Assembly: GCA_004764695.1 (NCBI GenBank)
Contig: SMSO01000035.1
Coordinates: 618,001 to 682,000 of the forward strand
Direction: 5' to 3'
DNA: 64,000 nucleotides
Origin: Schizochytrium sp. TIO01
Taxonomy: Eukaryota > Sar > Bigyra > Thraustochytrida > Thraustochytriidae
Below are positions 48,712 to 53,956 of this stretch, piece after piece. Position 1 is the first letter of the stretch; each line of letters begins with the position of its first letter. The notes below the pieces were generated by a model. It worked only from the letters and a program-made list of their open reading frames with translations, searched no databases and was not told where the DNA came from. The position numbers were made by a program, and so were the translations under genes.

Positions 48712-50493
48712 ATGACTGTCGCGGTAGTTGGCACAGCAACCCCTCATCCTGCACTCTTGGACCTCTGCACGAAACTCACCAAGCCATGGGGAGAAGAGCA
48801 GCCTCTTAAGCTTGTGACTCTGACTATTGAAGTCCATCAGTTGCTTTCTGAGGCAAAGGTTCCTCACCGACACGCTTTCTCGAGCTCAAAGCTTGGACTT
48901 AACCCAGACGAAACTATCTCATGCGTCGTTGTGGACCTCGCCACCTCCCGTGAACAGGCGAGGAAGCCCGAAGAGCAAGCTCTGGCAGAACTTCTGCGTA
49001 CAGCAGTTCTCGATGCAGACAAAATTCTTCCCTTGTGTAGTCCAGAGCACTACCAGATCGTATCGCGTGGAGTAAATGCTGTTCAGGGCGTGCAGCGAAC
49101 AATGCTTGCTCATCATGCCGCACGTATGCTCCAGGCCGTCGAAGAATCTGCGGTAATTCAGTCTCCTGGGTGGCTCACAGAAAAGGGCCAGAGCGTGCTG
49201 GTTCTTGGGGAGCTTTCCATGGCCACGGCTTTGAGCAAATCGCCCTGCGTCAAGGTTGTTCACTACGTGCCATTGAGTGCTGCTGCTGATACCACTTACT
49301 CAAAGGTCGACCAAAAAGTAAAGGTATACTCGGAACTTTTGAACTCTGACGATATTGCGAATTTCGCTCAAAAGGAGGAGTGCTCGCTGGCCTGTACCTT
49401 TGAGCACACTGTCCATGCCCAAGCTCTAATGCACGTAGGTGTCTCTTGCTTTGGTGCCCACCCTTGGGCTGCCTTTGATATGGGTAATATTGCCAACCTC
49501 GCAAAGCAATCAAACCTAGCATGTCTGGTTGAGTCTGAACCACTGGACATGGTTCTCGGGGGTACAGTGACTGCATTTGCTATTTCAGACGGAAAGTCTG
49601 TCACTTTGGCTCCTTGCGGTCTCTCTGCCGCCCTTGCTTCTTATTTAAGCGTCAACTTCTTTTTGCCACTGGTTGATGCGGCTTCCTCGGTAGGAACTCC
49701 TATTCAAGGTCTTTTCAAGCTAAAATTCGCCCTGACATCGATGGGCCCACGCCTTGTCATCGACTCTCCATCGCTCATGACTTCCGCAGAGGTAACTGCT
49801 GTTTTTGAGGCTTTAAAGAAGGATGCTTATGCCGTTCTTACTGCAGCTGCCAAACAATCTCTTCTCAGTGCTCATCCGACTTGGTCTGTGGAGGCGCATG
49901 ACCAAAGCGAGCCGGTTCATCTCGGAGTTCTAGGTTCTACACGTGGCACAGATATGCAGTTCCTCATCGATGCCATCTCCCAAGGCTGGATTAACGCTTG
50001 TATCGAAGTTGTGGTATCTAATAAACTTGATGCTTACATTTTGCAACGTGCACGGAACCACGGGATTCCTGCTGTTCGCCACGGCATGAAGGGTCTAAAG
50101 ACCCGCACTGAGTTCGATGCTTTGGTGACCAAGACGCTCGAGGAGCACAATGTGGAGTTGGTTCTTTTGATAGGGTACATGCGAATTATGTCTGATGAGT
50201 TCGTTGCTCGATGGGAGGATAAGTGCTTGAACGTCCATCCGTCGCTTTTGCCTGAGTTTGCTGGTGGAATGGATCTCAATGTCCATCAAGAAGTGATTGA
50301 TGCTGGTAAAAAGGAAACTGGCTGCACTGTACACCTTGTGACCACGGAACTTGATGGCGGCCCTATTATTATTCAAAAGCGTTGCCCAGTCCTGGGGACT
50401 GATGATTCGGACGTTCTCAAAGCTCGTGTTCAAGCAATGGAAGGGCCGGCCTTTGTGGAAGCTGTATGGAAGTTAACTGCAGATTCTTCATGA
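48712..50493 (+). CDS. PurN-type GAR formyltransferase with decayed PurH-like and PurD-like N-terminal domains
   Basis: 593 residues, ATG at 48712. Residues about 401-593 form a complete glycinamide-ribonucleotide formyltransferase domain (third step of purine synthesis, using 10-formyl-THF). It starts with HLGVLGSTRGTDMQFLI and has the catalytic Asn507, His509 (NVHPSLLPEFAG) and Asp548 (DGGP). Residues about 158-400 resemble GAR synthetase (PurD): VLVLGELSMATALSKSP where PurD has GxGGREHAL, then VSCFGAHPWAAFD, AISDGKSVTLAP and GTPIQGLFKLKFALTSMGPR. The ATP-binding and catalytic loops are missing. Residues about 1-155 faintly resemble the IMP-cyclohydrolase half of PurH. No AIRS (PurM) domain is present, unlike the animal GARS-AIRS-GART enzyme. 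The GART assignment is firm; the two decayed domains are inference. Confidence 0.85.
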   Translation: MTVAVVGTATPHPALLDLCTKLTKPWGEEQPLKLVTLTIEVHQLLSEAKVPHRHAFSSSKLGLNPDETISCVVVDLATSREQARKPEEQALAELLRTAVLDADKILPLCSPEHYQIVSRGVNAVQGVQRTMLAHHAARMLQAVEESAVIQSPGWLTEKGQSVLVLGELSMATALSKSPCVKVVHYVPLSAAADTTYSKVDQKVKVYSELLNSDDIANFAQKEECSLACTFEHTVHAQALMHVGVSCFGAHPWAAFDMGNIANLAKQSNLACLVESEPLDMVLGGTVTAFAISDGKSVTLAPCGLSAALASYLSVNFFLPLVDAASSVGTPIQGLFKLKFALTSMGPRLVIDSPSLMTSAEVTAVFEALKKDAYAVLTAAAKQSLLSAHPTWSVEAHDQSEPVHLGVLGSTRGTDMQFLIDAISQGWINACIEVVVSNKLDAYILQRARNHGIPAVRHGMKGLKTRTEFDALVTKTLEEHNVELVLLIGYMRIMSDEFVARWEDKCLNVHPSLLPEFAGGMDLNVHQEVIDAGKKETGCTVHLVTTELDGGPIIIQKRCPVLGTDDSDVLKARVQAMEGPAFVEAVWKLTADSS

Positions 50494-50809: not shown

Positions 50810-53800
50810 TTACTGCTGTTGCTGTTGTTGCTGCTGTTCTTCCAATTGCTGAGAGTGAAGCTGTTTCAGTTTTTGCTGCTTATGAACAAAACCAACTAAC
50901 ACTTGACGGGCCTCATTCAAATGGCGTTGAAGAAGTCTCCGCTTGAAAGGAAGATCCTTGATTGGTGCGGGAGGCTTTGTTTGCTTTACATCTTGTGCAA
51001 CAATTGGGACAGTAATAAGCAGAATCTTAGATAGCACCTGCGCAAGACGCAAGACCGTCTGGTCAGCAAGGCGTTTATCTAAAGCCATGGTTGATGACAT
51101 GGATGACATTTCTGCAAGACCGAAAAGTATGTCTTGTACATCATGTCCAAATTCAACAGCTGGATGAGGGGTTCTTGATTCTTGTTTCCCATTTCCCCCG
51201 CTTTTTTCAAGTTGCAGCACACTTGCGCTGTATTCGTCTTGCTCGATGCTCGAGTTCAAAGATGAATAATCCGATACATCGTCGTCATGACAATCATCGA
51301 TCGCTGTATGCTGCAGATCAGCATCTTCTCTTATGCTTAAATCTGGAATCTGTCTTTGGATACTTGCGTCTTCATCAGAAGCACGATAGGTTTGTTCTTC
51401 ATCTTCTTCATCTTCCTCATCTTCAAGATTTTGGTAATGAAGTCCAGCGCAGGACGTAACACCTAAAGTATAAACTTCGACCAAGGTTGATGCACTATTT
51501 CCGGCAGATATTGCATTATTAACCTTATTCAGCTCTGAGGTACTCTCCGCCTGCTTCTCTGAAAGCGTATTTTCGTTGGGATCAGGGCGAGCTTGAGAGT
51601 TATCGTGGGTCTGACTCTGCTCTTTCCCAGGACCAATAATGAGCTTATTCATTTTGGCAAGGCGATCAAGGGCCTCGTTTCTCTCACGCTCTAAACGCGC
51701 AACTTGCTGCCGTAAATCTTGTACTGACTCTTCCTCGGTCTCAAGGCGAGCTTGCCACCGCTGGAGCGAGTGCTCAAATGCTCGCACCGTATTTTCTCGA
51801 AGCAAAAGGTTCTCTCTTCGCACAGATAAATCCTGCTCGGCACGTTCGATTTGCATTCGAGAACCATCTATCTCTGAACGACGTCTTCGCATATCTGCTA
51901 CAAATACTGCTTCTCTGCGAGCAAGGCTCATGGCTCTCTCACGCCTCTCACGGTCCACTTGTTCAGCTGCTGCTTCTACAAGCTGAGCTCGCTCTTGTGT
52001 CTCGTCATTGTATTCAACAGAATCTAAATACCATTGCCGCATCTCCTTCTCCCACGTTTTGATGTCTTCTAAGTGGTTATCAAAAGGTCGTTGACCAGAT
52101 TTAAGAGTGGTAATTGGAAATGTCGGCAGATCCTCCTCCTCATCAGCTTCATTATTTTCCAAGTCATTTAACTCTTCGTATTTCATGAACTCCTTTACAC
52201 ACTCTTCGTTCAGGCTATCTAGATCTGAGTCAGAATTTGATACAAATTCGTTCTGTAACTCCGAAGAATTGGCAGTCCATGTCTTATTTTCAAACATATC
52301 GCTATAGCCAGGCGTAGAAGAATTTACGCTGCTACTTGAGCTAGAATGATTGGGTTCATAGCTAGCTGAACTTTTATCTTCGAGGCTGCTTTCATTTTCA
52401 ACGTCGCTATTGCTACTAGAGTCATCACTTTCGTATCGCGTCAGGTATAAATTGTTGGACCCAAGAATCTCTTCCGCTTTGCTTGGAAGACGCTGGATTG
52501 ATAAAGGTGACCTATCTTCCTCGAAACTTTCGCTTAGTATTCCATCTTGAAAGCTAGGTTCACATTTATTAGAGTTTACGTCAATTGTCGATTCAATTGT
52601 CTGATTTACTTTTCCATCTTGCCACCATTGCTGAGTGCGTATACTGTATTGGGCCAACAGATCACGCGTTGAGTCTCCCAGAGCTACATTCTCCGTTGCT
52701 TTTGCTGTCAGAGTGTGAAAAACACTGTCAGGCAGCATTTCCTTTTCTTTTTCCTCTTCATCTAAACTTGCAAAGGAAGGCTTATGTTTTCTTGGCGATT
52801 CGCAAGTCTTGGAGGGATTTCTACTAACTAGTTGCTGCTTAGTTCGCTCTGATTTTGTACGAGTTGTGCGTAAATCCTTCGAGCGTTGAAATAGTGCCTG
52901 CTTTGGTACAGTCATAACACGCCGGCACAAAGATCCAAAAACTAGCGTCATTTCGGTCTCATTATCATTTTCAGCTGCTGTTGAAGCAGTGCATATGATC
53001 AATGTTATAGAGTTACCACTCAAGCTTTGTCGAAGAAGTCGCGTGAGAAGAGAGTTTCGATATGGCACAAATTGTTCTTGTATCTGGCAAGCAGTTAAAG
53101 AAGTCACAACCTCACGAAGGGCTAAAAGTGAACGATTCATATGGCCACCCTCCAAAAGAGCTTCTGAGGTAGAAGGCGTATATTTTTCAGAGCCTGCAAG
53201 GTCCACTAACATCAGAGTTGAAATACGACATTCATGAGTCTTTTCTGTTTGCTCATTGTTGAAAGAATGGTTGTCTTCATCTTTCACATCATCTCGTTGC
53301 ATCTCGACATAGAATTGGACAATTGCATGTGACCGTGATGATTTTGCACCAGTGCTTGTGTCCCTTGTGTGGCGTTGAGATTCTGCTTGTGCGATGAGAT
53401 CAAACACAGCGCGTGGAGATTCCACTGCAATTCGGGTTAGTCCTTCAATTGTTGTTCCAGTGCTGGGATCGTCACCTTTGATGCGAAGAGTTTCTGGCGT
53501 TTCATTCTCGTTTCTTTTGACCATAAGGTCGTGAATATGTTCATTATATATCTCCAAAAAGGACAGGTAGAGCCGAAAGCGGTGAGTTTTGCGTTGGTCT
53601 TGAAGAGAGTGAATTTCTTGGAAAAGGGATCCAATACAAAACTCAATGACACCCTCTTCACCATACATTGTGTGCGTTTTCCCGCTTCCTGCTTGTCCAT
53701 ATGCGATGATTGTTGCATTGAACCCTTCGATTACACGCTTTACTGCGCGCGCACCAACATTGGCAGAAACTTCTGCATTGGTATGATGCGGATCAAAGAC

Positions 53801-53956
53801 ATGGTCAAACATGAATCTCCTCTGACCATCATGTACGAGAAGCCTCCCTTCGTCTTGATGCCAGCGGGTTTTATTGGAGTCTCGGTCTGTGTCTGCAGCA
53901 AGCTCGTGATCAACAAGAGGACGAAAACGCGCAGCAACTTGAACTGGATGCTGCAT
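50810..53956 (-). CDS. kinesin-like motor protein with polyglutamine C-terminus
   Basis: 1,048 residues, ATG at 53954-53956. Residues about 5-360 form an N-terminal kinesin motor with the P-loop GQAGSGKT (87-94), switch I SSRSH (206-210), switch II DLAGSE (252-257), then MNRSLLALREVV and VPYRNSLLTRLLRQSLSGNS. These allow ATP-driven microtubule movement. In the P-loop, Thr of the common GQTGSGKT is Ala, but Walker A is intact. Residues about 500-620 are Ser/Asp/Glu-rich, about 640-775 a coiled coil likely to dimerise, then a second acidic disordered region. The last residues are eight consecutive Gln. The family position is unclear, and an N-terminal motor suggests plus-end movement. The neighbouring IFT80 makes a flagellar link tempting but unproven. 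Confidence 0.9.
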   Translation of the reverse strand: MQHPVQVAARFRPLVDHELAADTDRDSNKTRWHQDEGRLLVHDGQRRFMFDHVFDPHHTNAEVSANVGARAVKRVIEGFNATIIAYGQAGSGKTHTMYGEEGVIEFCIGSLFQEIHSLQDQRKTHRFRLYLSFLEIYNEHIHDLMVKRNENETPETLRIKGDDPSTGTTIEGLTRIAVESPRAVFDLIAQAESQRHTRDTSTGAKSSRSHAIVQFYVEMQRDDVKDEDNHSFNNEQTEKTHECRISTLMLVDLAGSEKYTPSTSEALLEGGHMNRSLLALREVVTSLTACQIQEQFVPYRNSLLTRLLRQSLSGNSITLIICTASTAAENDNETEMTLVFGSLCRRVMTVPKQALFQRSKDLRTTRTKSERTKQQLVSRNPSKTCESPRKHKPSFASLDEEEKEKEMLPDSVFHTLTAKATENVALGDSTRDLLAQYSIRTQQWWQDGKVNQTIESTIDVNSNKCEPSFQDGILSESFEEDRSPLSIQRLPSKAEEILGSNNLYLTRYESDDSSSNSDVENESSLEDKSSASYEPNHSSSSSSVNSSTPGYSDMFENKTWTANSSELQNEFVSNSDSDLDSLNEECVKEFMKYEELNDLENNEADEEEDLPTFPITTLKSGQRPFDNHLEDIKTWEKEMRQWYLDSVEYNDETQERAQLVEAAAEQVDRERRERAMSLARREAVFVADMRRRRSEIDGSRMQIERAEQDLSVRRENLLLRENTVRAFEHSLQRWQARLETEEESVQDLRQQVARLERERNEALDRLAKMNKLIIGPGKEQSQTHDNSQARPDPNENTLSEKQAESTSELNKVNNAISAGNSASTLVEVYTLGVTSCAGLHYQNLEDEEDEEDEEQTYRASDEDASIQRQIPDLSIREDADLQHTAIDDCHDDDVSDYSSLNSSIEQDEYSASVLQLEKSGGNGKQESRTPHPAVEFGHDVQDILFGLAEMSSMSSTMALDKRLADQTVLRLAQVLSKILLITVPIVAQDVKQTKPPAPIKDLPFKRRLLQRHLNEARQVLVGFVHKQQKLKQLHSQQLEEQQQQQQQQ
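50813..50836 (-). repeat. polyglutamine CAG/CAA tract at the kinesin C-terminus
   Basis: Eight consecutive Gln codons (mixed CAG and CAA) stand immediately before the TAA stop, with a further Gln-rich stretch just upstream. The mixed codons should slow slippage. Confidence 0.85.

Follow-up and report, generated by a model that had tools for sequence, protein, structure and literature searches.

A PurN GAR formyltransferase carrying a decayed PurD-derived domain and a probable PurH remnant in one reading frame of Schizochytrium sp. TIO01

A single reading frame was found in which a C-terminal PurN domain is joined to a middle part that shares ancestry with PurD but has lost its catalytic elements, and to an N-terminal part that is probably a remnant of PurH. 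In purine synthesis PurD is the GAR synthetase of step 2, PurN the folate-dependent GAR formyltransferase of step 3 and PurH the IMP cyclohydrolase of step 10. With moderate confidence, and from this one genome, we favour the reading that an active PurN would have retained the dead PurD domain, and probably also the PurH domain, as a structural or assembly module.

The frame and its parts are listed below with their positions in the window (the whole stretch of 64,000 nucleotides that was analysed).

48712..50493, plus strand: whole ORF, consisting of a PurH-N-like part, a pseudo-PurD part and PurN in one uninterrupted frame of 593 amino acids
48712..49182, plus strand: residues 1-157, probable remnant of the PurH IMP cyclohydrolase (MGS fold) by profile-profile comparison, core at residues 34-121
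49183..49914, plus strand: residues 158-401, pseudo-domain derived from PurD (GAR synthetase), by profile, BLASTP, hhalign and model
49915..50490, plus strand: residues 402-593, PurN GAR formyltransferase domain, TIGR00639 179.5 bits against a cut-off of 150.1
49936..49956, plus strand: STRGTDM, residues 409-415, altered GAR-phosphate loop of PurN that reads SGxGSN in every or almost every bacterial row
50230..50238, plus strand: NVH, residues 507-509, catalytic Asn and His of PurN by alignment to bacterial PurN
50353..50355, plus strand: Asp548, catalytic Asp of PurN by the same alignment

The limits of the ORF given in the first-pass annotation are exact, as 593 codons run from the ATG at 48712 to the TGA stop at 50491-50493 with zero internal stops, and this open frame rules out a frameshift or a pseudogene. 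GC3 in the three parts, from the N- to the C-terminus, is 0.48, 0.49 and 0.46 and the flanks have 33-38% GC; being even over all three parts and unlike the A+T-rich flanks, it makes the entire frame look coding. The ORF is single-copy, with no paralogue found in its own eukaryotic genome (64 Mb in 37 contigs). No relatives of the whole 593-aa protein were found in the viral contigs searched, and none of residues 1-399 in the prokaryotic genomes searched. A GDT1 antiporter gene adjoins the ORF, as does a kinesin gene, whose motor protein, with a C-terminal polyglutamine run (LEEQQQQQQQQQ), is encoded at window positions 50810-53956 on the minus strand. The genome also encodes a PUFA synthase scoring above the family cut-off. 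On contig C3 (857186-871321), a 5651-aa open frame with repeated ketosynthase matches was observed, a modular polyketide or fatty-acid synthase.

Residues 402-590 match the PurN family TIGR00639 with E 5e-53, exceeding the curated cut-off, and the domain is about 40% identical to bacterial PurN. The catalytic residues Asn507, His509 and Asp548 are all retained, and we take them to correspond to N106, H108 and D144 of E. coli PurN. The earlier claim of a PurN domain with its Asn/His/Asp is therefore upheld, although the domain is not wholly canonical: 21 of 26 near-invariant positions are retained and five differ, with 24 bacterial PurN sequences as reference. The substrate-phosphate loop SGxGSN has become STRGTD (G410T against 24/24 rows, N414D against 23/24 rows), the EH pair close to the C-terminus has become EG (H578G), and a 3-residue insertion lies behind the LLPEF loop. 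The SGxGSN loop is usual in PurN and lies outside the curated family definition, and the domain with STRGTD still scores as PurN. Full PurN activity is not certain because residues of the substrate loop are altered.

No second PurN-type gene was found in the 64 Mb genome, in which the other formyltransferase is Fmt-like. PurT was rejected as an alternative GAR formyltransferase, since no candidate in the genome lies above the cut-off and the best one, far below it, is a PurK-PurE-PurC fusion. A stand-alone, intact PurD (526 bits) is present, an intact PurH and PurL (1634 bits) are each encoded at a separate locus, and PurM is a separate gene on another contig. With PurD, PurM, PurL, PurK-PurE-PurC and PurH all present, the ORF gene probably supplies step 3. 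It probably encodes, as far as sequence searches indicate, the sole folate-dependent GAR formyltransferase of the cell, an essential enzyme of purine synthesis. The intact PurD, PurH, PurM, PurL and PurK-PurE-PurC found elsewhere also imply that the pseudo-domains are dispensable for catalysis.

Several of these genes have features of their own. The intact PurD (contig C30, 1321-2988) carries a C-terminal extension in which a hydrophobic stretch (VAVAVALVGIVAGAFVI) is followed by a short polar tail, resembling a tail-anchored membrane protein. PurM (contig C6, 1423-2724) is divergent, scoring 56 and 38 bits against a TIGR00878 cut-off of 236, and is recognised by Pfam as AIRS and AIRS_C. PurK, PurE and PurC form a trifunctional fusion in one long frame (contig C36, 1-2631), with the order of domains taken from the translation, and fusion is therefore no rarity in the purine pathway of this genome.

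The shared ancestry of residues 158-401 with PurD was shown by several comparisons. In an NCBIfam search residues 157-401 matched only purD (E 7.2e-4, in two stretches), the TIGR00877 score of 18.5 bits missing the curated cut-off of 288; the one Pfam match was GARS_N, sub-threshold, and the best PDB sequence match of the middle part was human GARS, non-significant at E 0.35. BLASTP against the host's own PurD aligned residues 279-387 (E 2e-7) and a second, collinear segment at residues 137-254, with 26% identity over the aligned part. Using hhalign, 228 collinear columns were aligned end to end (score 33.3) with a PurD profile made from 81 bacterial PurD sequences and the host's own PurD. The decoy maxima were 25.9 for 400 shuffles, 21.6 for 200 segments of other ORFs in the window and 28.5 for 220 segments of real bacterial ORFs, and these scores rule out a chance similarity. 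None of the non-PurD templates scored above 15.2, and global-mode alignment to PurD gave a z of 11 over the 220 real bacterial segments.

An AlphaFold model of the middle part on a PurD-containing alignment reached a pLDDT of 84.6. Guided by those PurD rows, it matches human GAR synthetase (PDB 2qk4) with a Z of 24.1 over 234 residues whereas Z reaches no more than about 14 for non-PurD ATP-grasp enzymes; on these lower values an origin from another ATP-grasp family was rejected. Because PurD sequences were included in its alignment, the model is not independent support for ancestry; what this prediction shows is that a compact PurD core can accommodate the sequence that is left. A single-sequence AlphaFold run on residues 1-401, made without an alignment, was unusable (pLDDT 35). 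Both checks suggested in the first-pass annotation, a profile search of the middle part and its structural overlay on PurD, thus came out as a PurD match, the first with PurD on top and the second in a model whose alignment held PurD.

The middle part is also heavily decayed. Only 20 of 110 near-invariant PurD positions are kept, while 54 are deleted and 36 changed, in agreement with the earlier observation of a PurD-like order of elements from which the ATP-grasp and GGREHA residues have been lost. The GGREH loop, the surroundings of GSKxFAK and the QDHKRIFD-NTGGMG loop are absent, the ATP lid has gone together with its AAGKGV loop, and the C domain is missing entirely; the motifs GPExPL and PGN are altered, as are the metal ligands, where E has become D and N has become P. 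With its catalytic loops, lid and C domain gone, the middle part cannot be an active PurD. The deletions sit at loops and whole subdomains and the residual strands and helices still fit the PurD fold, a pattern that suggests selection on folding.

Residues 1-157 quite likely share ancestry with the PurH cyclohydrolase, judging from profile comparison, although this is not proven. In hhalign the PurH N-domain profiles scored about 26-29 over residues 34/67-121 (27.8-28.7 when set against every other template tried, all at or below 16). The match is collinear over residues 34-121, and to residue 150 at lower certainty. Thirteen of 49 near-invariant PurH-N positions are kept and the catalytic loops are lost: STGGT and NIDIGGP are missing, NLYPF has become DLATS and AAKN has become AVLD. 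The gaps in the match fall on active-site loops. The alternative is that homology is limited to the PurD part, residues 1-157 being an alpha/beta or lineage-specific domain of unrelated origin that was never PurH. This would explain why searches of Pfam (MGS), NCBIfam (TIGR00355) and PDB sequences with residues 1-157 gave no PurH or MGS match and why BLASTP of the N-terminus against the host's PurH gave none. Shuffles never reach the local PurH score, but two of 400 real-protein decoys (about 0.5%), both of them PurD N-domain fragments, score as high. In global mode, on the other hand, the PurH alignment lies above all 220 real-protein decoys, and together with the specificity among templates and the collinear match with its gaps at active-site loops, this makes an unrelated N-terminus possible but rather doubtful. 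As such an N-terminus is compatible with a scaffold, its probability is not to be read as exclusive of the reading favoured here. The PurH likeness proposed earlier for the first 155 residues accordingly survives as a faint match that is specific among the templates tried but not conclusive; no library names PurH. Several Selenomonadales, Nitrospirae and Chloroflexi genomes were observed to have PurH split into cyclohydrolase and transformylase-like genes, the Chloroflexi copies clustering around purN.

The retention of dead domains as a structural or assembly module could have come about in a few steps. The fusion would once have joined active domains; stand-alone PurD and PurH genes may then have taken over the activities, after which the substrate-binding loops of the fused domains were presumably lost. 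The folded cores would have been kept because, as a module for structure or docking, they may hold PurN in its proper oligomer or beside other purine enzymes. The idea of two enzymes turned into scaffolding or regulatory pseudo-domains, put forward in the first-pass annotation, agrees with the loss of catalytic elements, the foldable core and the intact PurD and PurH elsewhere; the scaffolding or regulatory role is what we infer from them. A docking role is favoured because inactive dihydroorotases provide precedents and because PurD and PurN of E. coli fall into one interaction cluster, together with PurM, PurK and PurT (PMC12583656). The attached pseudo-PurD and pseudo-PurH might further act as a metabolon adaptor that binds the genuine PurD and PurH enzymes, or partners of these, which we consider unlikely. 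An adaptor of this kind would bring together the GAR supply and both 10-formyl-THF-dependent steps, with two pathway enzymes turned into scaffold.

The assembly of purine-pathway enzymes is still debated, and a dead PurD, perhaps with a dead PurH, on a live PurN would offer a genetically tractable case for asking whether physical association alone is selected. Pyrimidine synthesis has known cases of pseudo-enzyme scaffolds; for purine synthesis the literature searched yielded no paper on one.

Alternatively, the upstream domains may be a passive relic of an old multifunctional fusion, decaying in place because PurN could lose them only by acquiring a new start codon and an N-terminus that is stable. 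Both domains are heavily depleted of conserved positions and both activities have intact stand-alone genes, as a relic would lead one to expect. However, the 400 upstream codons are fully open and coding-like in composition, and the deletions fall at loops and whole subdomains, leaving a remainder that fits the PurD fold and suggests selection on folding, so that we give this explanation a low probability. About as improbable is a regulatory role, in which the PurD-derived part would bind a purine-pathway metabolite and control PurN allosterically. There are, in general, pseudo-enzyme domains with regulatory roles, and the N-domain with part of the ATP-grasp B core is predicted to stay folded, but the ligand sites of PurD are largely gone; ligand sensing is less likely because the ATP lid, the ATP and metal ligands and most conserved phosphate-site residues have been lost. 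Very improbable, finally, is an animal-type GARS-AIRS-GART that lost AIRS and gained an N-terminal extension. PurD likewise precedes PurN there, and the best PDB matches of the middle part are to human GARS, weakly by sequence and also by model. Against it, no trace of AIRS lies between residues 394 and 402, a divergent PurM has a gene of its own, and the human GARS match is hardly better than that to bacterial PurD.

The comparison with known systems follows the parts of the protein. With PurN it shares the C-terminal 190 residues and the catalytic Asn/His/Asp, and differs in the 400 extra residues, STRGTD in place of SGxGSN, EG in place of EH, and the insertion. It has the order of elements of PurD (TIGR00877; PDB 2qk4, 1gso) and, in the PurD-guided model, the predicted fold of its N-domain together with a portion of the ATP-grasp core, whereas the GGREH loop, ATP lid, QDHKRIFD-NTGGMG loop, metal ligands and C domain of that enzyme are wanting. 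The likeness to the MGS-fold cyclohydrolase of PurH (ATIC) is a weak collinear match at residues 34-121; the STGGT, GRVKTLHPKIHGG and NIDIGGP motifs are lost or altered and the AICAR transformylase part is absent.

As fusions, the animal GARS-AIRS-GART proteins likewise have the PurD-derived part N-terminal to the PurN part in one chain. Every part of that animal fusion is active (PMC10912719), whereas here the PurD part is dead, an extra N-terminal domain is present and a profile search found no AIRS (PurM) domain within the ORF, AIRS being a separate gene. The distinction from the animal fusion drawn in the first annotation is thus confirmed. No published account of a PurD/PurH-like - PurN fusion was found in the literature searched, which was mainly open-access.

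A parallel in kind is the pseudo-dihydroorotase. Yeast URA2 carries a defective DHO-like domain, and an inactive dihydroorotase is needed for the ATCase dodecamer in Pseudomonas putida (both as cited in PMC6022934). Those cases belong to another pathway and to other folds, and their assembly role is experimental where ours is inferred; in both, nevertheless, a dead enzyme domain has been kept within a fusion or complex of nucleotide synthesis.
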